A stretch of DNA of 64,000 nucleotides from assembly GCF_018881835.1 (NCBI RefSeq), contig NZ_JACVPO010000002.1, positions 186,001 to 250,000 on the forward strand, written 5' to 3'. Below the pieces are notes generated by a model, which saw only the letters and a list, made by a program, of their open reading frames with translations, ran no database searches and was not told the origin of the DNA. Every line of letters starts with the position of its first letter. Position 1 is the first letter of the stretch. This document shows positions 11,471-56,331 of the stretch, piece after piece. The position numbers and the translations under genes are program-made. Source of the stretch: Polynucleobacter hallstattensis. Lineage in GTDB: Bacteria > Pseudomonadota > Gammaproteobacteria > Burkholderiales > Burkholderiaceae.

Positions 11471-11498
11471 AACCCAGGCCAACCCCCTGGGTTTTTTC
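11471..11498 (+). terminator. intrinsic terminator after parvulin gene
   Basis: An 8-bp perfect stem, AACCCAGG (11471-11478) paired with CCTGGGTT (11486-11493), with a 7-base loop, runs into a T tract ending about 11497. It lies 31 bases past the stop of the peptidyl-prolyl isomerase and before gloA, so it closes the yciB-bolA-ppi unit. Confidence 0.85.
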
Positions 11499-19885: not shown

Positions 19886-21007
19886 TTAACTACAGGGATT
19901 AGGTGCGTTGCGTGTTTCTAAATAAAGCAGGGCTAGGTAGGCACCGAAGATAAATCCTGGCAAGGCAAGCAGTGATCCGATTGCCAATGTGGAGATACCA
20001 CTCAAGCCTTGGCCAACAGTACAGCCAAGTGCTGTAACTCCGCCGAACCCCATTAAAGAAGCACCAATTAAATGGTTAGCCGTATCTTCAGTATCGCGAA
20101 AACTTTCCCAACGAAATGACTTAGTCAAAATAGAAATGCAGGCTGATCCAGAAATCATTCCAATGACAGCTGCAATGCCAACAGTAATCACCTTTGAAGT
20201 GTCGCTATACATCATCAACCAATCTAAGGAAAAGGCATAAGGTGCCACAAACGAGAGACTCTCCATGCGACCAGAGTTAGTCACCAAGAAAACCTCTTCT
20301 AAGGTGTTAGGATCCTCAGCAACAAAGCCCAAGTTACCTGATATCCACCATACAGCGCAAATAGCCAGGCCAACAAAAATTCCGGCAAATAGATTTTCAG
20401 CCGTCCAGAAAGCTTTATTTGCAAGTGCATAAGCAATAAAGGCAAATCCCACTACTAAACCTAAAGCTAGATGTAAGTTATTGCGCGCAATGCCAGTCAT
20501 TGGAGCTAAGATACTTGGCAAATCTTGAGATGTATTTAGGGCAATGAAGACCGAATCCAAAGTATTGACGCGGATAACACCCAGAAAGCCCTTCATCGTC
20601 ATGTAGGCCGAAAGTCCAAGGACGATAAATACGATGATGGACTTCAGATTGCCGCCGCCAATACGAACAAGAGTCTTGCTACCGCAGCCAGATGAAAGCA
20701 CCATGCCAAAACCAAATAGCGTGCTACCTACTATTGAAGATAGCCATAAAAACCTATTGCCGGTATACATGCTCTTTAAGGGATCAATAAGCCCCAAGTA
20801 AGACATCAAAGCAAAACCAATAATCGCCACGCCGATGGCCAGAAACCATTGCTTTAGACGACCCCAGCTAGACATAATAAAAATATCTGAGACTGCACCC
20901 ATGCTACAGAAACCTGTTTTTTGCATCATTGCACCCAACAGGAAAGTCACTGCAAAGGTAGCAAATAAAACTGATTTGCTAAGAGAAGAAATATCTACCG
21001 CATCCAT
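19886..21007 (-). CDS. full-length YeeE/YedE transporter (thiosulfate uptake, TsuA-like)
   Basis: A 373-residue inner-membrane protein with nine or more hydrophobic segments. Conserved cysteines sit in short re-entrant-looking motifs: TGFCSMG (Cys34), SSGCGSKTL (Cys108), SGSACIS (Cys290) and ALGCTVGQG (Cys329), the pattern of YeeE/TsuA proteins that pass thiosulfate along a cysteine path. Placed inside a sox run it could import thiosulfate or return a sulfur species to the cytoplasm. It is followed by two half-size paralogues, so three YeeE-type genes stand in a row. Confidence 0.87.
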   Translation of the reverse strand: MDAVDISSLSKSVLFATFAVTFLLGAMMQKTGFCSMGAVSDIFIMSSWGRLKQWFLAIGVAIIGFALMSYLGLIDPLKSMYTGNRFLWLSSIVGSTLFGFGMVLSSGCGSKTLVRIGGGNLKSIIVFIVLGLSAYMTMKGFLGVIRVNTLDSVFIALNTSQDLPSILAPMTGIARNNLHLALGLVVGFAFIAYALANKAFWTAENLFAGIFVGLAICAVWWISGNLGFVAEDPNTLEEVFLVTNSGRMESLSFVAPYAFSLDWLMMYSDTSKVITVGIAAVIGMISGSACISILTKSFRWESFRDTEDTANHLIGASLMGFGGVTALGCTVGQGLSGISTLAIGSLLALPGFIFGAYLALLYLETRNAPNPCS

Positions 21008-21025
21008 AAAAAATCTTTACTGAAA

Positions 21026-21340
21026 TTATTTAAATTTATAAAACTGCTTATTGAGAAAAGCTGTTACATCAGCCTCATCCTCAGGGAAAAGATCAAGACG
21101 TAATTCTGTATTACACCTAGCAACCATCGTCTTTAGGTTTTGAAGATTTTTAACCTTGCTATCACTCCGGGTGTAGATCATGTCACCATTGCCAAAGCCA
21201 GATTTTTTGGCGTGGCAGGCATAGCATTTCTCTTGATCAATTTTTTTACCGTTTGCAAGGTCCGGCGCAGCATAGACAGATAAATGCAGGCCGAACATGG
21301 CAGCAAATACAAATATAAGCTTAATCAGTGGTAATTTCAT
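21026..21340 (-). CDS. small periplasmic c-type cytochrome
   Basis: A 104-residue protein with a Sec signal peptide (about 1-24, ending VYAA) and one haem-binding CYACH (39-43). An extra Cys76 and two Met (54, 72) lie downstream; either Met could be the distal ligand. The C-terminal FPEDEADVTAFLNKQFYKF helix is typical of a group of short cytochromes found with sulfur genes. It sits between the metallo-hydrolase and the YeeE gene, so it probably carries electrons from a sulfur enzyme. Exact family not recognised. Confidence 0.85.
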   Translation of the reverse strand: MKLPLIKLIFVFAAMFGLHLSVYAAPDLANGKKIDQEKCYACHAKKSGFGNGDMIYTRSDSKVKNLQNLKTMVARCNTELRLDLFPEDEADVTAFLNKQFYKFK

Positions 21341-21399
21341 TTGAAATCAGTCATTTACAAAGTAATCGGCTATTTTAAAGCCCAGATGACAAAAATGCC

Positions 21400-22368
21400 T
21401 TATTCCGCCTGAATTGATAGGTATACGTTGTACGCATTCATGCGGTTTGCAGCTCTAAACAAGGGCATTCCTTCATATTCTGACCAGTCAGCCTGCCGAT
21501 AAGCCTCCTCGAAGGGGTCCATATCGATAGCCGCCTTAGCCATTGATTGGCGCAAATATCGTAAATACTCCCGTGTAAAACGGATATCTTCAATGGGATT
21601 AATCGAGTGCGCACCGTGGCCAGGAATCACGATACTGGGATTGAGTGATTCAATCTCATTCAAGGCCTGCAACCAGCCCTTGCTATCAGCGTTACCAACA
21701 AAGGGAATGCGACCTCGAAAAACCAAATCACCTGCAAAGAGGACTTTTTCAGATGGGATATAAATAATTAAGTCCTCAGGCGCATGAGCTGGACCCACCC
21801 TACCAATCTTAAAGTTCACACCACCAACTGTGAGTGTGAAACTCTGATCTATCCAGACATCTGCTGATATTAAGTTGGTCGAGGAATTTATCCAAGGAGC
21901 AAAATCAGTTCGTGATGCGATGAGGCGCTGCCGAGCCGTCTCCGAAGAGATGTAACTTCTCCCCTCCCCTTGAGCATAAATTTTTGCACCAAGCTTCTTA
22001 AACTCTTGGAGCCCATAAACATGATCTGCATGGTAGTGAGTAACGATGACAGCTACAATTTTTTGAGGAGTAATTTTTTTAATTTCTGCAATGAGTTTCT
22101 TGGCAAGCGCTGGTGAACCTAGAGCATCAACCACCACTACACCTTTGGGAGTAATCACAAACCCCGCATTAGAAATAAAGTTTTGATTTTTACTGCTGCC
22201 CATCTCTGGCAAGCCTTGTACGAAATACGTATGTGGCGCTACTTGAATAGGCTTCAGGATCAAATCATCGGATGCGTGAGCAGTGCTTACAGATAAAAGT
22301 AGTAAGGCCGAGACAAGAAAAAGCACTCTTAGGGCATAAGCGCGCAAGTCAAGATGCGGCAACCGCAT
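21400..22368 (-). CDS. SoxH-like periplasmic metallo-beta-lactamase-fold hydrolase
   Basis: A 322-residue protein with a long Sec signal region (about 1-33, ending AHAS), then a metallo-beta-lactamase domain: THYHADH (110-116), a later GPAHAPED, FAGDLVFRG and IPGHG supply metal ligands. It resembles SoxH and the quinoprotein-relay zinc hydrolases found in sox clusters, whose reaction is not settled. It follows the DsrE-like gene by three bases, so coupled translation is likely. A sulfur-linked role is inferred from position. Confidence 0.88.
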   Translation of the reverse strand: MRLPHLDLRAYALRVLFLVSALLLLSVSTAHASDDLILKPIQVAPHTYFVQGLPEMGSSKNQNFISNAGFVITPKGVVVVDALGSPALAKKLIAEIKKITPQKIVAVIVTHYHADHVYGLQEFKKLGAKIYAQGEGRSYISSETARQRLIASRTDFAPWINSSTNLISADVWIDQSFTLTVGGVNFKIGRVGPAHAPEDLIIYIPSEKVLFAGDLVFRGRIPFVGNADSKGWLQALNEIESLNPSIVIPGHGAHSINPIEDIRFTREYLRYLRQSMAKAAIDMDPFEEAYRQADWSEYEGMPLFRAANRMNAYNVYLSIQAE

Positions 22369-22371
22369 AGC

Positions 22372-22797
22372 TTAGGGCTTTATATAAGCGAAACGGCTTT
22401 GGTTTTGAAGATCAGCAACTCGAACAACTCCGGATGGAGTGTAGTCTGTGTCTAAGATGAATTGATCCTTTTTCAGATTTCGATTCTTTAGCGTAATCTC
22501 GCAGACCTCAAAGCGAACTCCACGGGACTTCAATGCGCCAACTAAGGGTGCATATTCAATTCCATTCTTCTTATCTTTTGCGCCTTCCATCATGATGTCG
22601 ACGCCATTGGCATGAGTAACGACAATGATTTTGGTCTGCGGGGATACATCCAAATGATTGCGTATATTACGCAAACCTTTAATACCTTGAGACTCAGCGT
22701 CATCAATGTGATAAACCACCTCTGTGGGTCCCGCACCATTGGCTCCGCTAGCAAACAGGGTAAAAGTAATTGCCAGGCATTGAAGTAATTTTTTCAT
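22372..22797 (-). CDS. exported DsrE-like protein
   Basis: A 141-residue protein with a Sec signal peptide (1-22, ending ANGA) and a DsrE/DsrF-like fold: VVYHIDDAE start, KIIVVTHANGVDIMM, and RGVRFEVCEITLKNR. Cys99 in FEVCEIT matches the single conserved Cys that carries persulfide in several DsrE relatives. Most DsrE proteins are cytoplasmic; this one is exported, so it would handle sulfur in the periplasm beside Sox. It lies between soxB and the SoxH-like gene. Function inferred. Confidence 0.85.
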   Translation of the reverse strand: MKKLLQCLAITFTLFASGANGAGPTEVVYHIDDAESQGIKGLRNIRNHLDVSPQTKIIVVTHANGVDIMMEGAKDKKNGIEYAPLVGALKSRGVRFEVCEITLKNRNLKKDQFILDTDYTPSGVVRVADLQNQSRFAYIKP

Positions 22798-22819: not shown

Positions 22820-24550
22820 TTAGAGTGAAACCATTCCGGGGTTATTTTTTACACCTTTAATGATCGGTTCGTTGAGCTTTACAGCCTTAACCACCTTCAC
22901 ATCACGCAAATGGCGTTCCATCACATCCCAAATTGCCTCACCACCAGCATTCTTAGCATCTTCGCTAACTGGTGCCCAACCAGCAACCTTATATGTCTTG
23001 CTAGGATCAATATCCTTGCCATTTAAACGCATATCACTAATCCGCTTGCCAGCAGATGCCGCTGGATCAATGGTGTATTGCATACCACCCACACGAACCA
23101 TGTCACCACCCTGCTGGTAGTAAGGATCAGGGTTAAATAAATTGTCTGCCACATCTTCCAAAATAGTCTTGATAGTTTCACCAGTCATATTGGTAACTGT
23201 GGTGTATGGATAGGTAATGGCGGTTTGATCTAGCAAATTCTCACGGGTAATAGCTTGACCTGGCAATAAGCTTGTGCCCCAACGGAAACCTGGAGAGAAA
23301 GCAATCTCCGCGTTCTTCTGAGTCATCAATCCGTCCAAAATTAACTGGTCGAAACTGCCATTGAAATTACCACGGCGATACAAAAGACCATCTGTAGTTG
23401 CTAGTTTTTCATTCAACTTCGCTTCATATGGGGCTCGTACTTTAGCGATCAACTTGTTCATCGCAGGATCAGCCGGAATCATATTCGAGAAAATTGGGAA
23501 AAGCTTGTAGCGAAAATCTACTGGCTTGCCACCTTTGACATCAAAATCGAGTACGCCCAAGAATTTACTATTGGAACCTGCATTGGTAACTAAAGTTACC
23601 CCATTCGAGTTCTTTACCTTGACTGGAGTTGGAACACCATCATGCGTATGGCCGCCCATAATTGCATCTAAGCCTGTAACACGGGATGCCATCTTTAAAT
23701 CAACGTCCATACCGTTATGGGATAACAACACAACTACTTTTGCACCCTTGGCCTTTACTTCATTAATGGTCTTCTGAAGATTTTCTTCCTGAATGCCAAA
23801 TGTCCAGTCTGGTGTGAAGTAACGTGGATTAGCAATTGGGGTGTAAGGGAAGGCCTGGCCAATCACGGCCACTTGAATACCGTTCTGCACCTTCATGACA
23901 TAAGGATTAAAGACGGAGTCACCAAAGTCTGCCGTCTTAATGTTTTGAGCGATGAAAGAAACCTTGCCTTTGAAATCGCCATTCACAATTTCCATGACGC
24001 GTTTCTCGCCTAGGGTCATTTCCCAGTGGGGAGTCATGACATCAACACCTAACAGCAAGGCCGCATCAACCATATCTTGACCATTGGTCCAGAGGGATGT
24101 ACCTGATCCCTGCCAAGTATCTCCACCGTCCAATAACAGCGCACCTGGACGACTAGATTTGATTTGCTTTATCAGAGTTGCCATATGAGCGAAGCCACCC
24201 ATCTTGCCGTAGTTTTGTGCAGCCGCAACGTAATCAAGATAAGTAAAGGCATGCGCATCTCGCGTCCCTGGCTTAATACCATTTGCCTTTAAAAAATATT
24301 CGCCGACTAAATGAGGTGTCTTGCCCTCTTGCGAGCCAATACCAAGATTGACATTAGGCTCACGGAAATAGATTGGTAATAGCTGGGCATGGCAATCGGT
24401 GAAATGCAGAAAATGCACATTCCCAAACTTCGGCAAATCATAGAATTTTTGAGCGGTTGTCTGTGCGTTAGCGAAATTCGATTGCAAACTCATTCCACCA
24501 GCAGAGGCGATAGCCAATGCTTGCAAAAACTCACGACGATTTAAAGACAT
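22820..24550 (-). CDS. soxB: thiosulfohydrolase SoxB
   Basis: Releases sulfate from the SoxY-bound cysteine S-thiosulfonate and S-sulfonate. The 576-residue protein has a twin-arginine signal (NRREFLQ, 4-10), then the 5'-nucleotidase-type metal site: TDCHAQ with Asp52 and His54, LLDGGDTWQGSG, LSHNGMDVD and MGGHTHDG, expected to hold two Mn. The C-terminal 5'-nucleotidase domain follows from about residue 380. It is separated from upstream soxX by 45 bases that contain a strong hairpin at 24567-24588. Confidence 0.97.
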   Translation of the reverse strand: MSLNRREFLQALAIASAGGMSLQSNFANAQTTAQKFYDLPKFGNVHFLHFTDCHAQLLPIYFREPNVNLGIGSQEGKTPHLVGEYFLKANGIKPGTRDAHAFTYLDYVAAAQNYGKMGGFAHMATLIKQIKSSRPGALLLDGGDTWQGSGTSLWTNGQDMVDAALLLGVDVMTPHWEMTLGEKRVMEIVNGDFKGKVSFIAQNIKTADFGDSVFNPYVMKVQNGIQVAVIGQAFPYTPIANPRYFTPDWTFGIQEENLQKTINEVKAKGAKVVVLLSHNGMDVDLKMASRVTGLDAIMGGHTHDGVPTPVKVKNSNGVTLVTNAGSNSKFLGVLDFDVKGGKPVDFRYKLFPIFSNMIPADPAMNKLIAKVRAPYEAKLNEKLATTDGLLYRRGNFNGSFDQLILDGLMTQKNAEIAFSPGFRWGTSLLPGQAITRENLLDQTAITYPYTTVTNMTGETIKTILEDVADNLFNPDPYYQQGGDMVRVGGMQYTIDPAASAGKRISDMRLNGKDIDPSKTYKVAGWAPVSEDAKNAGGEAIWDVMERHLRDVKVVKAVKLNEPIIKGVKNNPGMVSL

Positions 24551-24566
24551 AGTGATTCCCTTAAGA

Positions 24567-24588
24567 AAACAGGCCTTGCGGCCTGTTT
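24567..24588 (-). promoter_or_regulatory. GNRA-capped hairpin between soxX and soxB
   Basis: A perfect 9-bp stem (24567-24575 with 24580-24588). On the minus-strand transcript it reads AAACAGGCC, loop GCAA, GGCCTGTTT, so the loop is a GNRA tetraloop, followed by TTTTCTTAA. It lies 7 bases past the soxX stop and 16 before the soxB start. The short U-rich tract makes it a possible weak terminator or a processing and stability element that sets soxB-distal expression lower than soxCDYZAX. Effect not proven. Confidence 0.7.
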
Positions 24589-24595
24589 AAATGTG

Positions 24596-25240
24596 TTATT
24601 TGTTCACAGGTGATTCTGGGTCAAGCAGCAAAGCCATGACATCCTGTATTTGCTTCTCATTTAATAACTTGAAGTGGGCAAAACGCGGCATATTGCTGCA
24701 TGCGTTGTAAGCCTTGGAGTTATTAATTCGGTTCCAGGTATAAGTTACGACCTCTGGAGAATATCCACGCATTTTTCCATATCCAGTTAAGGATGGACCG
24801 ATGTTCCCATAAGAAATTTCTTTAGGGTCAATTTGATGGCAGTTATAACAACCACCGCCAACTTGGGTGTCAGCTTTATCAGACCACGTGGCTCCACGAC
24901 CACTTTGCGCGATTCTTTCACCACTCTTCCAGTCGCCTATATATTTTCCATCAGACGGCTGCTTGATAGTATCCATATTAATCTTCTGGATTTTCTCGCG
25001 CATAGCTTGACCTTGTTTACTATCAGCAAACTTAGGATCAGAACAGAACTTTTGCGTTGCATCTTGGTCGATGCGATCCAATCCAGCAATACCTTCTGCG
25101 CGGAAGCTATCTTGAATCATCTTGTTAAATTTTGGATCATTTTTTTGTTGAGCAAGAGCAGGAGTCTGCACTAAACCAGTAGCAAAAATAAATCCAGTAG
25201 CAGCTAAGAGTTGTTTTAAGTGTGTAATTTTCATATTCAT
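24596..25240 (-). CDS. soxX: SoxX c-type cytochrome
   Basis: Haem subunit of the SoxAX complex, which joins thiosulfate oxidatively to SoxY. The 214-residue protein has a Sec signal (about 1-30, ending ALAQ), a long N-terminal extension before the haem domain, the haem motif GGCYNCH (130-135 region) and the axial Met184 in NMPRFA. It follows soxA by ten bases. The extension of about 90 residues before the core is longer than in minimal SoxX proteins. Confidence 0.95.
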   Translation of the reverse strand: MNMKITHLKQLLAATGFIFATGLVQTPALAQQKNDPKFNKMIQDSFRAEGIAGLDRIDQDATQKFCSDPKFADSKQGQAMREKIQKINMDTIKQPSDGKYIGDWKSGERIAQSGRGATWSDKADTQVGGGCYNCHQIDPKEISYGNIGPSLTGYGKMRGYSPEVVTYTWNRINNSKAYNACSNMPRFAHFKLLNEKQIQDVMALLLDPESPVNK

Positions 25241-25250
25241 CTCTTATCCA

Positions 25251-26066
25251 TTAACGCTTTAAGCCAGGTGTTTCAACAGTTCCGCCATTGCCAGTTTTTG
25301 CCATATACATAGACAAAGCGATAGTTACATCTGAGCCATAAATAGGGTAAGGAAAACGTTGCTGACGGAAGCAATCGTTCAAGCGTTGTTGCATCGTCCA
25401 AAATTGACCGCTCGATACGCGGTAGGCTGGCCAATAACCCCAACCCAAAGCGGCACCCTTTTGCTCTGTGATGTTCGGTAAATCCTGTAAGCGAATACGC
25501 TTGCCGTTTTCAGCATGACAAGATGCGCAGGAGAAATCCATTGGACCACCCTGGAAGAAGAAGGCACGCTTACCCAGGTCATACATCTCTTTTTCCTTTG
25601 GATGCGCAGTGCTTACCTTAATCTTGTCACCTTTAGATAAGGTAACAACATAGGCAACGATAGCCTCCATATCCTTTTTAGGACCCTTTTGGAATGGAGC
25701 ATCAATCATTTCCTGTGGATCGCGACCTTGCAATACCTGCATACAAGTCATCAAGCGTGACTCTAAATCTTGAACCTTATTGGTGTCCTTAAAGTAGCGT
25801 GGCAGTTGTGCTGCTGCGCCCTTCACTACACCAGGGCCTAGACCCAGATTACATTGCTCAAGAGTTGCGTTCTTTGGGCCAGCCGGCTTTTTCCACAACT
25901 CTTCACCTGCTGCCTCGTAGAGCTCTGAAGGATTTCCATCGGCAATCATCTCGCGATATTTAGCAATATCGTCAGTAGCACTCTTTTGTGCTGACACCGA
26001 AGATGTCATTGTTAATAAAGCTGTTACTAAACCAGTAGCTAGCCCTAAGGTCAATTTACGCTGCAT
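25251..26066 (-). CDS. soxA: SoxA c-type cytochrome, single-haem form
   Basis: Partner of SoxX; its active-site Cys carries the sulfur in thiosulfate loading onto SoxY. The 271-residue protein has a Sec signal (about 1-26), one haem motif CASCH (180-184) and Cys232 in LNDCFRQQRFP as the modified active-site cysteine. The N-terminal domain has only Cys72 and Cys108 where diheme SoxA proteins carry a second CxxCH, so these likely form a disulfide. This marks the monohaem SoxA type. Confidence 0.95.
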   Translation of the reverse strand: MQRKLTLGLATGLVTALLTMTSSVSAQKSATDDIAKYREMIADGNPSELYEAAGEELWKKPAGPKNATLEQCNLGLGPGVVKGAAAQLPRYFKDTNKVQDLESRLMTCMQVLQGRDPQEMIDAPFQKGPKKDMEAIVAYVVTLSKGDKIKVSTAHPKEKEMYDLGKRAFFFQGGPMDFSCASCHAENGKRIRLQDLPNITEQKGAALGWGYWPAYRVSSGQFWTMQQRLNDCFRQQRFPYPIYGSDVTIALSMYMAKTGNGGTVETPGLKR

Positions 26067-26121
26067 TTCCTACCCTTTCAGAACCACGGAGGCGGTGAAG
26101 ATTTATTAAAGCAAAAAACAA

Positions 26122-26430
26122 TTAAGAAACAGTTGCTTCATCAGTGCGTTTATCGCCCTTATTATCATTCCAAGTCACAGCAATTTTGTCACCCTTAGCA
26201 CCCTTGTACTTAAAGTTCAAAAATGGGTCCTTTGAAACTGCAGGACCAAATTCGCCAGCAAATACTTTTTTGCCATTGGCCGTAACATTAATAGTGCTGA
26301 TAAACCACTGAGGGATAGTTTTGCCGGCAGCATCTTTACGCTGACCAGATTCCATATCATGTTTCATCAAGATTTTTACGTCAACAGTACCGCCGTTTTC
26401 AGCAGCTCTTACGCGCATTGGATCAGCCAT
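26122..26430 (-). CDS. soxZ: SoxZ sulfur-carrier complex subunit
   Basis: A 102-residue beta-sandwich protein that pairs with SoxY as the carrier scaffold. Recognisable pieces are the start MADPMRVRA, IKMLMKHDMESGQRKD-like KHDMESGQRKD, an IPQWFI strand and the closing WNDNKGD. It has no signal peptide of its own, consistent with export by piggy-backing on the twin-arginine signal of SoxY. An AAGGAAC ribosome-binding site precedes the ATG. Confidence 0.95.
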   Translation of the reverse strand: MADPMRVRAAENGGTVDVKILMKHDMESGQRKDAAGKTIPQWFISTINVTANGKKVFAGEFGPAVSKDPFLNFKYKGAKGDKIAVTWNDNKGDKRTDEATVS

Positions 26431-26486
26431 TTTGGTTCCTTTTTTACTCTATATATAAATGAATTGTTCTATTGAATTACTGCGAA

Positions 26487-26939
26487 TTAACCGCCGCAAC
26501 CACCAAGCGTTACTTTGACTTCTTTAACAGTCATCAACCACTTACCATCAGCCTTGACTAATCCATAGACATTGGATGTTTGACCCATCTTGATACGAGT
26601 AGTAACGAATGGCTCAGTACCAGCAGGAATAAAGAATTGGGCGGCGAGTGAGCTTGGGTTCTTTTCAACCAAAATTGCCATCTGCTCCGCTTTAAGCGAG
26701 GTAGTAATTCCGACAGGAACTACCGCACCATTTTCGGCAATATCAGGAGCATTCAATGTAACTGCGGCAGATTTATCTGGGCTACCAGCACCTAAAATTT
26801 TAAAAACATCATCCAAGCTCTTACCTTCAAAAGCGGCTTTATTCCACTCTTGGGCTTGAGCAGTACTAATAAGGCCTGTAGAAGCCATCAAGCCAAACAC
26901 TGCTGAGTACTTCAATACACTGCGACGCTGCTGATTCAT
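26487..26939 (-). CDS. soxY: SoxY thiosulfate-oxidation carrier protein
   Basis: Carries all pathway intermediates on the cysteine of its C-terminal swinging arm. The 150-residue product ends VTLGGCGG, with Cys148 as the carrier. A twin-arginine signal is visible (NQQRRSVLKYSA, then a hydrophobic stretch ending TAQAQ). The ATG at 26939 is chosen because AAAGGAG stands at the right distance; the frame is open 33 bases further upstream without such a site. Confidence 0.96.
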   Translation of the reverse strand: MNQQRRSVLKYSAVFGLMASTGLISTAQAQEWNKAAFEGKSLDDVFKILGAGSPDKSAAVTLNAPDIAENGAVVPVGITTSLKAEQMAILVEKNPSSLAAQFFIPAGTEPFVTTRIKMGQTSNVYGLVKADGKWLMTVKEVKVTLGGCGG

Positions 26940-27024
26940 AAAAACTCCTTTATTAATCTTCATTACTCTCAATTTATTGCTTATTTTGCATTAAAACACT
27001 GTGGATACCACCTAATTCCTTAAT

Positions 27025-28104
27025 TTATTTACCGCCTGAAAGCATCCAAACCACCAAAGCCTTGCGATCCTCATCAGAAAGCTGTGCTTGAGCTGGCATC
27101 GGGATTGAACCCCAAACACCCGCTCCCCCAAGCTTCACCTTGGTCATTAACCGATCCACCGCACCACTTTGCCCCTCATACTTTTTGGCAATATCTGCAA
27201 TTGAAGGCCCAACTAGCTTGGCATTAGGGGCATGACAAGCTGAGCAGTTCTCGTTCTTGAAGAGCGCTGCTGGTCCTTTTGCCGCAGAAGAATGGGTATC
27301 CGACGCATGAGCCAAGCCAGACCCTGATGCTCCAGGCAATTGCTTAATAGGGGGCTTCGTAGTGTCTGCACCGCGGTATGGCCCGTACATACGATTTTGC
27401 TCTGCAATATTTTCATGCGCATTGCGAGCAAAGTCTGGCAGGGTTGACCCAATTTGCACGAACGAAACACAGTTATGCATACATGCATTGCCATTGACGT
27501 CAGGCTTATCTTTTACGTTCCAAAAGCCGTGCTTAGTTGTCATGCCGTTACGGTTCGGCATTTTAATTTCAGCAATATTTTTATCGCTCAGAACAAAATC
27601 GTCAGGGACAATTTCGCCAAGACTCAAAATAAATGCAACCAATGCATAGGTGTCATCAGGAGTTAGCGATCTAGGCGCATTCCACGGCATCGCACGGTAA
27701 ATGTAATCCCACAATGTGGATACTGTAGACAGCTTCATTAAAGTAGTTCTTTGCGGCTGCTTTGTATCTTTTAATGAGGCAACTCGACCCGTCTTCAGAT
27801 CATCCTTAGTGGTGCCACCAGCAATAGGTGTAAAGATTTCATTAGACTCACCGAAGGTACCGTGACAACTGGCACATTGAGCCTCCCAAATAATCTGTCC
27901 TTTTTCAACTGAGCCGGATCCTTTTGGCAAGCCCTTAAAGTCTGGACGCACATCAATATCCCAGGCTGCAACTTCAGAAGGAGTCGCCACTCTACCAACA
28001 CCAGGAAATTTTGTTGAACCTGATTGAGCAAATACGAATTGCGCAACCACTGTAATGAGCGCCGCAACTCCTAGGCGGATCTTCAATTTATCCAACTTGA
28101 ACAT
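27025..28104 (-). CDS. soxD: SoxD dihaem cytochrome c, sulfur dehydrogenase subunit
   Basis: Electron-accepting subunit of SoxCD, which oxidises the sulfane sulfur held on SoxY. The 359-residue protein has a Sec signal (about 1-27) and two haem motifs, CASCH (77-81) and CSACH (287-291), plus a further cysteine pair in ACMHNC (208, 212) in the linker. The N-terminal domain follows SoxD/SorB patterns with DVRPDFKGLP. Its start lies 17 bases inside the soxC end, so translation is probably coupled. Confidence 0.94.
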   Translation of the reverse strand: MFKLDKLKIRLGVAALITVVAQFVFAQSGSTKFPGVGRVATPSEVAAWDIDVRPDFKGLPKGSGSVEKGQIIWEAQCASCHGTFGESNEIFTPIAGGTTKDDLKTGRVASLKDTKQPQRTTLMKLSTVSTLWDYIYRAMPWNAPRSLTPDDTYALVAFILSLGEIVPDDFVLSDKNIAEIKMPNRNGMTTKHGFWNVKDKPDVNGNACMHNCVSFVQIGSTLPDFARNAHENIAEQNRMYGPYRGADTTKPPIKQLPGASGSGLAHASDTHSSAAKGPAALFKNENCSACHAPNAKLVGPSIADIAKKYEGQSGAVDRLMTKVKLGGAGVWGSIPMPAQAQLSDEDRKALVVWMLSGGK

Positions 28105-29488
28105 TGCTCACCTCGCCATTTGAATCTAATTTCCATGATTGAATTGCATTGTTGTGATAGATCGAGCGTGTACCGCGAACATTACGAAGTGTCTTGATCG
28201 TTGGTTGTATGTATCCGGTGTCATCCATGGCTCTTGATTGCATGATTGCCGGAGAGCCATCCCACACCCAATCAATATTAAAGCGCGTAATGGATTTAGT
28301 AAGTATGGGCGTTTCTAAACGGGCTGTACGCCAATTATTACCGCCATCGAAAGACACATCGACTCGTGTAATTTTTCCTCGACCAGACCAGGCCATGCCG
28401 CTGACGTTGTAAAAACCTTTATCTAAAAGTTGTTGGCCGCCTGATGGTGTAGTGATAACAGATTTGCATTCCTGAATTGATGCATATTGACGGTGATCAC
28501 CATTTGGCATCAAATCGATGTAATGAATTGCCTCATCCTTAGAGTTCCATGGGGCATCGCCTACTTCTAAGCGGCGTAACCATTTCACCCAACTAACGCC
28601 CTGAACACCAGGAACTACCAGGCGTAACGGGAAGCCATTTTCTGGGCGCAGCATCTCACCATTCATAGCCCAAGCCACAATGGTGTCATTAAGGCAGCTC
28701 TCAAGATTAATGGTGCGAGTCATTCCCGAGCCATCACCGCCCTCGGCTAACATGAACTTTCCTTTTTTGAGATCGGCACCGCACTCCTCTAGCAATACCT
28801 TTAAAGGAACACCTGTGAATTCACAGCAAGAGAGCATGCCGTGCGTGTACTGGACAGTTGGAACAGCTACGTTACCCCACTCTAATCCAGTATTCGCGCC
28901 ACACTCAATAAAGTGAGTACGAGAAACTGATGGCAAGCGCATTAAGTCGTTCATCGTGAAAACACGCGGATTCTTAACCAAGCCATTCACCATCAAACGA
29001 TGTGTTTCTGGATTGACGTTGTACCAACCTTGATGGTGACGTTCAAAATGTAAACCGTTTGGCGTGATAGTTCCAAACAGACCTTGAAGAGGTGTAAAGG
29101 CGACAGATGCAGCAGAGACACGCGTAAGCCCAGGAGACTCACGTCGAATTAAATTAGATTCATAAATAGATGGCACGCCGTATGGCATGGTTGCTACGTT
29201 TTTGCCAAGCGTTGTTTGCCACTCCTGTTTCTCAAGGATGGCTGGATCGCCCTCACCTGCTGCCATAGCTAGTGGAGCCGCTAGTCCAGCAGTTGCGCCA
29301 CCAAGTGCAGACATAAAACCTTTACGTAAAAAGCCACGACGATTTTCATCCAATCCGTTTGCGTTGATATCGGCGATGAGCTCCTGAGAGATAAAATGTT
29401 CAGGTGCCTTTACAAGACGAGCTTGATTGGCTGGCTTTTCGATTGCGCTAATATCCTGCGCGCTAATCTCAATTTGTTTTTTGGTCAT
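28088..29488 (-). CDS. soxC: SoxC molybdoenzyme, sulfur dehydrogenase subunit
   Basis: Sulfite-oxidase-family molybdenum enzyme that, with SoxD, oxidises the SoxY-bound sulfane sulfur. From the ATG at 29488 it has 466 residues with a twin-arginine signal (ENRRGFLRKGF, 48-58) and the molybdenum ligand Cys196 in FIECGANTG; the dimerisation domain fills the C-terminal third. The frame stays open to 29542, but that start would overlap the regulator gene. The presence of soxCD predicts full oxidation of thiosulfate to sulfate rather than sulfur-globule storage. Confidence 0.95.
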   Translation of the reverse strand: MTKKQIEISAQDISAIEKPANQARLVKAPEHFISQELIADINANGLDENRRGFLRKGFMSALGGATAGLAAPLAMAAGEGDPAILEKQEWQTTLGKNVATMPYGVPSIYESNLIRRESPGLTRVSAASVAFTPLQGLFGTITPNGLHFERHHQGWYNVNPETHRLMVNGLVKNPRVFTMNDLMRLPSVSRTHFIECGANTGLEWGNVAVPTVQYTHGMLSCCEFTGVPLKVLLEECGADLKKGKFMLAEGGDGSGMTRTINLESCLNDTIVAWAMNGEMLRPENGFPLRLVVPGVQGVSWVKWLRRLEVGDAPWNSKDEAIHYIDLMPNGDHRQYASIQECKSVITTPSGGQQLLDKGFYNVSGMAWSGRGKITRVDVSFDGGNNWRTARLETPILTKSITRFNIDWVWDGSPAIMQSRAMDDTGYIQPTIKTLRNVRGTRSIYHNNAIQSWKLDSNGEVSNVQVG

Positions 29489-29522
29489 TTGATATCTGCT
29501 TTGGTCAATAGATACTTCGAAA

Positions 29523-29864
29523 TTAATGCAAGCTCTCAGCAATTTTTGCGCACACGGTTTGGCACATTTCTACAGTGGCGTTATCAGCAATTGAGTAAAA
29601 GACAGTGGTACCCTCTTTGCGCCTCAGCAAAATTCCCGCTTTATAAAGCGCAGAAAGGTGACGTGAAACATTAGCCTGACTTGAGCCGCATAATTCAATC
29701 ACCTCGGACACAGACTTTTCACCGCTACACACTGCATACATGATGCGCAGACGTGACGGCTCCGAAAGCACATTGAAGTAATCAGCGACTCGTGCAAAAA
29801 CCTCTTCCATTGCTTGCGGAGAAAGGTCCTTAGTGGCTTTTTTTGCCTTAGCTTTTATATTCAT
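29523..29864 (-). CDS. soxR: ArsR-family regulator, SoxR/BigR/SqrR type
   Basis: A 113-residue winged-helix repressor with the recognition region SSQANVSRHLSALYKAG (61-77) and wing RRKEGTTVFYSI. Cysteines stand at 46 (AVCSGE), 59, 101 and 105. In the BigR/SqrR/SoxR group a pair at roughly the positions of Cys46 and Cys101 or Cys105 forms a polysulfide bridge that releases DNA. It heads the sox run, 34 bases before soxC, and is divergent from modBC. It is not the MerR-type SoxR of oxidative stress. Confidence 0.9.
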   Translation of the reverse strand: MNIKAKAKKATKDLSPQAMEEVFARVADYFNVLSEPSRLRIMYAVCSGEKSVSEVIELCGSSQANVSRHLSALYKAGILLRRKEGTTVFYSIADNATVEMCQTVCAKIAESLH

Positions 29865-31851: not shown

Positions 31852-31895
31852 CGTCTCAACATCATTAACAACCTTCTCAAATAATGGAGTTTTAT

Positions 31896-32207
31896 ATGCA
31901 AAATAGTCGTCGTCAATTTATGATTTTATCTGCTGCTGGTGCCTGTACTTTGGCATTGAACGGTCAAGTTCAAGCTCAAGCCATGGTTGCTGAAACTGAT
32001 CCACAAGCTGCTGCATTGGGTTACAAAGCAAACGCTACTACTGTAGATAAAGCTAAGTATCCAAAGTACGCTGCTGGTCAGGTTTGCAGTAACTGCGCCC
32101 TGTATCAAGGTAAAGCAGGTTCTGCTGCTGGTGGTTGCTCATTGTTTGGCGCTAAGCAAGTTGCTGGTCCAGGCTGGTGCTCTGCTTATGCTAAGAAAGC
32201 CGGTTAA
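31896..32207 (+). CDS. high-potential iron-sulfur protein (HiPIP), Tat-exported
   Basis: A 103-residue periplasmic electron carrier. It has a twin-arginine signal (NSRRQFMILSAAG, 3-15, cleaved near VQAQA) and four cysteines in the HiPIP order: Cys64 and Cys67 (CSNC), Cys81 (GGCSLF) and Cys95 (GWCSAY), which bind one [4Fe-4S] cluster. ATG 31896 is preferred because TGGAG stands seven bases before it; an ATG at 31884 overlaps that site. Next to the sox and mod genes it may move electrons from Sox to the respiratory chain. Confidence 0.93.
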   Translation: MQNSRRQFMILSAAGACTLALNGQVQAQAMVAETDPQAAALGYKANATTVDKAKYPKYAAGQVCSNCALYQGKAGSAAGGCSLFGAKQVAGPGWCSAYAKKAG

Positions 32208-32223: not shown

Positions 32224-32249
32224 AAAAAGCTGCTTCGGCAGCTTTTTTT
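32224..32249. terminator. bidirectional intrinsic terminator
   Basis: A perfect 10-bp stem, AAAAAGCTGC (32224-32233) with GCAGCTTTTT (32238-32247), closed by a TTCG tetraloop on the plus strand and followed by more T. The flanking A and T runs make it work on both strands: it ends the HiPIP transcript and overlaps the stop of the convergent methyltransferase gene. Confidence 0.88.
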
Positions 32250-56302: not shown

Positions 56303-56331
56303 AAAAAAGCCGAGACATTCTCGGCTTTTTT
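56303..56331. terminator. bidirectional intrinsic terminator
   Basis: A 13-bp stem, AAAAAAGCCGAGA (56303-56315) with TCTCGGCTTTTTT (56319-56331), has a 3-base CAT loop. A run on one side and T run on the other suit both strands: it ends the mdh unit and also lies just beyond the stop of the convergent DUF2863 gene. Confidence 0.9.

Follow-up and report, generated by a model that had tools for sequence, protein, structure and literature searches.

A conserved hairpin between soxX and soxB of Polynucleobacter resembles a weak intrinsic terminator inside the sox gene cluster

The sox genes in the 64,000-nt stretch of Polynucleobacter hallstattensis DNA that we analyzed (the window) lie on the minus strand in the order soxC, presumed soxD, soxY, soxZ, soxA, soxX and soxB, followed by other sulfur-related genes. 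Their coordinates are given in Table 1. The models for SoxC, SoxY, SoxZ, SoxA, SoxX and SoxB all gave matches above their cut-offs. The reading frame at 27025-28104, which we take to be soxD from its position, gave only weak matches to cytochrome models, below cut-off. Downstream of soxB, the MBL-fold protein scored under the cut-off of its best models, and the small ORF at 21026-21340 is called cytochrome-like from its CxxCH sequence, as it has no Pfam match.

Table 1. Genes and sequence elements around the soxX-soxB junction (window coordinates).
Feature	Position	Strand	Basis
soxX, upstream gene	24596..25240	-	TIGR04485 above cut-off; stop codon 24596-24598
soxB, downstream gene	22820..24550	-	TIGR04486 above cut-off; start codon 24548-24550
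soxC-(soxD)-soxY-soxZ-soxA block, upstream, same direction	25251..29542	-	models; soxD by position
DsrE-like, MBL-fold hydrolase, small cytochrome-like ORF and sulfur transporter (Sulf_transp), 3' of soxB	19886..22797	-	
Perfect 9-bp hairpin, GCAA loop (AAACAGGCC-GCAA-GGCCTGTTT)	24567..24588	-	sequence, fold, kept in relatives
G+C-rich core stem CAGGCC-GCAA-GGCCTG	24570..24585	-	best-scoring terminator stem here, d = 17.5
Short U tract 3' of core stem (TTTTCTTA)	24562..24569	-	almost no change at the first four T in relatives
Probable soxB Shine-Dalgarno AAGGGAA	24556..24562	-	sequence; purine-rich alignment columns; function inferred

The gap between soxX and soxB, read directly from the sequence, is 45 nt long (24551-24595). 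As an earlier note on this DNA had claimed, it holds a perfect 9-bp hairpin with a GCAA loop on the coding strand, followed by a short T-rich tract. The base of the stem is 7 nt from the soxX stop codon, TTCTTA follows the hairpin directly, and the hairpin region overlaps the Shine-Dalgarno-like sequence upstream of soxB. The tract 3' of the core stem has 6 T among its 8 letters, with a longest run of only 4. The 45-nt gap folds with -14.9 kcal/mol (z = -4.0), and none of 200 shuffled sequences was as stable. The same hairpin forms in a 141-nt context, a stretch that is as a whole unremarkable (z = -1.6, 13 shuffles equally stable). Between 18000 and 30000, the hairpin is the sole perfect dyad of at least 9 bp with a loop of 3-8 nt. 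In the whole window, such dyads occur at 8 places (13 records), and 20 first-order Markov copies of it gave a mean of 1.75 records (range 0-7); perfect 9-bp dyads are not unique within the window, yet they are above chance. The genome itself has one exact copy of the hairpin core and two places that match it with 2 mismatches, and no second GGCC-GNNA-GGCC was found in it. The lack of a second exact copy of the core rules out a repeat element. An Rfam search of 24000-25300 gave no match at gathering score; two matches fell below it, neither of them at the hairpin.

Terminators were scored with a heuristic of the d type, and a positive d was taken to indicate an intrinsic terminator. By this score, the hairpin has d = 17.5 on the coding strand vs -27.0 on the opposite strand. 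Other gene-end sites in the window have d = 27.5 (56309), 15.3 (11473) and 12.9 (32229), and the sox hairpin ranges from 4.8 to 21.7 among the loci of the junction comparison described below. The hairpins at 56309-56325 and 32229-32242 lie between converging genes, and their opposite-strand d is also positive (21.9 and 4.7). A consensus terminator scan of the window did not list the soxX-soxB hairpin, in our reading because the A-T pairs were counted as stem. The site has the G+C-rich hairpin with a short loop on the transcribed strand that is typical of intrinsic terminators, and a U-rich tract directly 3' of the stem with 4 T in a row.

The distribution of the hairpin was followed through the genus, where 176 of 186 genomes have a SoxX match. 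We examined 150 junctions (30 loci and 120 further stretches), and 26 matched genomes were left out. The gap is 44-70 nt long in 113 of these junctions, and all 113 have the hairpin; it is 1-24 nt long in the other 37, and none of these does. The earlier note would have counted a stem not conserved in relatives against its proposal; the stem is conserved in 113 of 150 junctions, and the remaining 37 show that a sox operon can exist without it. In short-gap junctions such as L177-L182 and L216, soxB lies close 3' of soxX, which may mean coupled expression.

The loop sequences in the 113 rows are GACA (46), GAAA (30), GCAA (15), GTAA (9), GATA (6) and GAGA (3), with GTGA, GGCA, GGGA and TTTG occurring once each. 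The hairpin had been described as GNRA-capped. That is accurate for GCAA in the window, but too narrow a name for the relatives, in which GNNA accounts for 112 of 113 loops and GNRA for only 59. The TTTG loop belongs to a single long-gap junction (L122, genome G004) and looks as if the palindrome had been flipped. The distance from the end of the core stem to the soxB start is 18-22 nt (sd 1.0) in all 113 junctions, and that from the soxX stop to the core stem is 8-35 nt (sd 6.5).

Changes were counted by parsimony on a soxB tree of 112 rows, as the hairpin row L215 was too short to be included. There are 0 changes per column in the inner GGCC columns, 0-1 in the 3' arm, 2 at the T after the stem, and 1 at each of the G and A that end the loop, while the middle loop bases have 13 and 18. 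No column in the inner stem, the 3' arm, the first four U or the ends of the loop thus changes more than twice (0-2 changes per column); for comparison, 38 fourfold sites average 33.5 changes and second codon positions 1.1. The four A columns of the 5' arm have 11, 8, 4 and 13 changes, nearly all between A and G, so that 36 one-sided changes stand against 0 at their four T partners. Three of these invariant T partners are also in the U tract, and the cleanest case for the stem is the fourth pair, with 13 vs 0. No two-sided compensatory changes were found in the arm table of 113 rows, and covariation adds no support. The support for the hairpin comes instead from purifying selection and the one-sided G.U pattern, which points to RNA of the coding strand. 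What is observed is the hairpin itself, with its polarity on the coding strand, its place between the genes and its conservation. The rows with the hairpin form groups of 106 and 6 on both trees, and 2 changes are needed; one gain and one loss, or two gains, are possible, and some of the tree joins have long branches. Three soxB rows with an in-frame stop within the first 600 nt were kept in the analysis (L112, L118 and L176, from G035, G030 and G033), and their hairpins are intact despite it. G030 also has a TAG inside its SoxX match. The sox genes may be decaying in these genomes, or the stops may come from errors in the sequence or a slip of frame in the analysis.

For reference, two predicted terminators of the window were followed through the 30 nearest genomes, own included (the sox tree has 112 rows): 56309-56325, between converging genes, and 11473-11491, between genes in the same direction and perhaps not at an operon end. 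A third intended control, for the gene at 31884-32207, was left out because paralogues were mixed into its matches. The core of 56309-56325 was fitted by 30/30 rows, 29 of them identical, and that of 11473-11491 by 29/30; the search patterns fix most letters, so invariance is partly by construction and the fitted-row counts are what matter. The sox core in the 30 nearest rows is CAGGCC in 21 and CGGGCC in 9. The stem of the sox hairpin is thus conserved to the same degree as the two control stems, which belong to gene-end terminators that are themselves predicted, and its conservation pattern is like theirs. Such stem conservation is ordinary for terminators of the genus; it supports membership in this class rather than an exotic function. 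A special sequence-specific role, as an explanation of the letter-level conservation, was dropped since the two controls are equally conserved. The T run after the sox core is 4 in 93 of 113 rows, 3 in 2, 5 in 10, 6 in 4 and 7 in 4, and the control run is 6 in 23/30 and 26/29 sites.

The same junction was compared in a wider set of 80 relative loci, which probably share species with the 150 genus junctions. They gave 74 soxX>soxB rows, 75 with the window (L034, L065, L066, L068, L075 and L081 have no row); the nearest 30 are L004-L031, L056 and the window. A terminator with positive d is found before soxB in 37 of the 75 rows, 26 of the nearest 30 and 11 of the 45 others, the remaining 34 of the 45 having none. 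In four of the 26 positives (L027-L030), the terminator has another sequence. At the other sox junctions, 5 of 444 are positive, with soxA>soxB set apart (3 of 4). When only gaps of 40-150 nt are compared, d is positive for 37/43 soxX>soxB junctions vs 4/180 others, and outside the nearest 30 loci for 11/17 vs 0/93. The soxZ-soxA gap has hairpins with positive d in L027, L028 and L030, which are of the P. cosmopolitanus/P. meluiroseus type, and L017 has a weaker form of terminator-like hairpin (d > 0) in that gap.

We also drew a class sample of 276 genomes evenly, of which 111 have SoxB at E ≤ 1e-100, with 118 matches. Of these matches 89 were analyzed, and the own match and 28 weaker or second matches were left out. 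In 57 rows the upstream ORF received no assignment (9 had no usable ORF), and 3 rows with soxZ upstream, 1 of them positive, were left out of the test. A terminator precedes soxB in 22 of 29 rows in which the ORF before it is SoxA or SoxX, and in 4 of 48 in which that ORF is another one or unassigned. These rows, like those for the junctions above, are related by descent, and p-values computed on them overstate their independence. The distance from these terminators to soxB has a median of 150.5 nt (range 11-378); as it is mostly large, they may simply end a separate unit.

What might a hairpin do at this position in a sox operon? We suggest that the hairpin and its short U tract are probably a leaky intrinsic (Rho-independent) terminator of moderate strength, which ends the soxCDYZAX block. 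The earlier note had left the choice between a partial terminator and an RNA processing site. The terminator half of that proposal is supported by the positive d on the coding strand only, the conservation in the genus, the stem like that of the controls with a shorter U tract, and the terminators at the same junction in other lineages. In the proposed mechanism, RNA polymerase arriving from upstream would pause at the U tract, and the CAGGCC-GNNA-GGCCTG stem would form during this pause. Some of the polymerases would then leave, and the remainder would read through into soxB and the later genes, and the outcome would be more mRNA for soxYZ and soxAX than for soxB and the following transport genes. 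The 18-22 nt between the core and soxB, which hold the presumed ribosome-binding stretch, probably leave no room for a usual promoter, and transcripts of soxB should therefore depend on read-through. The shortness of the U tract is consistent with incomplete termination. Furthermore, U is kept in the 3' arm even opposite G, which suggests the requirement of a U tract rather than that of a mere stem. However, with a U run of only 3-7 and d of 4.8-21.7, the hairpin might hardly terminate. From the sequence we infer termination in vivo, its partial extent and the expression ratio. If part of the transcripts were stopped here, the proportions of the Sox enzymes would be written in one 22-nt element.

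A broader proposal can be made only tentatively, with more doubt than confidence. The junction before soxB may be a recurrent control point of sox clusters, with terminators in several lineages. In Polynucleobacter, the terminator may have lost strength and become fixed as a valve, tuned or even regulated, for the levels of SoxB and sulfur transport relative to the SoxYZ carrier and the SoxAX cytochromes. The recurrence of terminators before soxB suggests that it may also be important for other sulfur oxidizers to keep SoxB at a level different from that of the carrier and the cytochromes.

The other half of the earlier proposal is an RNA processing site. The hairpin might process or stabilize mRNA in the manner of the puf-type decay terminators: full transcripts would cross the junction and be cut downstream, and the hairpin would shield soxYZAX mRNA from degradation by 3' exonucleases. 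This purpose would be served by a stable 3'-terminal stem with a GNNA cap, the G and A of the loop are conserved, and intergenic stem-loops with such a role are described (PMC5927463; PMC10311766). By itself, however, this explanation, which we consider unlikely, does not account for the T's that stay T opposite G, nor for the unrelated hairpins, mostly with T4-T8 tails, at the same junction elsewhere. It also overlaps with the preferred one, since a terminator hairpin could protect as well, and a protecting or processing role may exist alongside termination or instead of it. A conditional attenuator is a further alternative, in which read-through would be regulated, for example through soxX translation reaching the nearby stop, an RNA-binding protein or an antitermination factor. 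The core is nearly unchanged across relatives, and in the window the soxX stop is only 7 nt from the stem base, but the distance from stop to core varies from 8 to 35 nt, no conserved alternative pairing partner was seen by eye in the spacer, the Rfam search gave nothing at gathering score, and the two control terminators show the same degree of conservation. Regulated read-through is thus possible but unsupported, and we regard the attenuator as improbable.

It is highly improbable that the element acts as DNA, as a palindrome to which a regulator protein binds, and not as an RNA hairpin. GGCC-N4-GGCC is indeed a perfect dyad, but the one-sided changes (36 vs 0, or 13 vs 0 in the cleanest pair) disfavor a DNA operator, a loop with constant ends and variable middle bases is in keeping with an RNA tetraloop, and the genome has one exact copy. 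We give next to no credence to the idea that an ancestor had a full terminator here and that its functionless remnant has survived by chance. In the class sample, SoxA or SoxX genes are often followed by a strong terminator, and soxB then lies at a much greater distance (median 150.5 nt), so the site could be a leftover. A core with 0-2 changes per column, where fourfold sites average 33.5, already contradicts this idea.

A probable leaky terminator within an operon has precedents. Among the literature matches listed, judged by titles and abstract openings, none reports a soxX-soxB hairpin, which is no proof that it is unreported. In Thermus thermophilus, terminators are predicted elsewhere in the sox genes (PMC10318464). 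One paper on a Polynucleobacter strain states that energy gain via its sox genes had yet to be confirmed (PMC3308952). Public RNA-seq data are available for Polynucleobacter asymbioticus (SRA PRJNA523328), from a paper whose main text does not contain the word sox (PMC6629928); expression of the sox genes may be low there. With intrinsic terminators of the partial, intra-operon type, the sox hairpin shares the G+C-rich stem, the short loop, the U tract, the right strand and the position at the end of a gene block, but it lies only 18-22 nt before the next start codon. Its U run of mostly 4 is shorter than that of the two other Polynucleobacter gene-end terminators, mostly 6. The terminators before soxB in other Proteobacteria are at the same junction and have positive d, but their stems are unrelated, their T tails are often longer, and those in the class sample mostly leave more room before soxB, which may have its own promoter there. 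In Methanococcus maripaludis, termination sites internal to operons lower the expression of downstream genes (PMC10450193); these are archaeal and were measured by sequencing, whereas the sox hairpin is bacterial and known from sequence alone. Decay-terminator or processing stem-loops lie between genes in the operons of PMC5927463 and the puf work that it cites, and in the cip-cel operon (PMC10311766). Like them, the sox hairpin could make mRNA levels within an operon unequal, but they act on finished RNA, and its conserved U tract speaks for termination. Both internal terminators and decay-terminator hairpins have been described before, and the Polynucleobacter soxX-soxB hairpin is probably a further case of internal termination.
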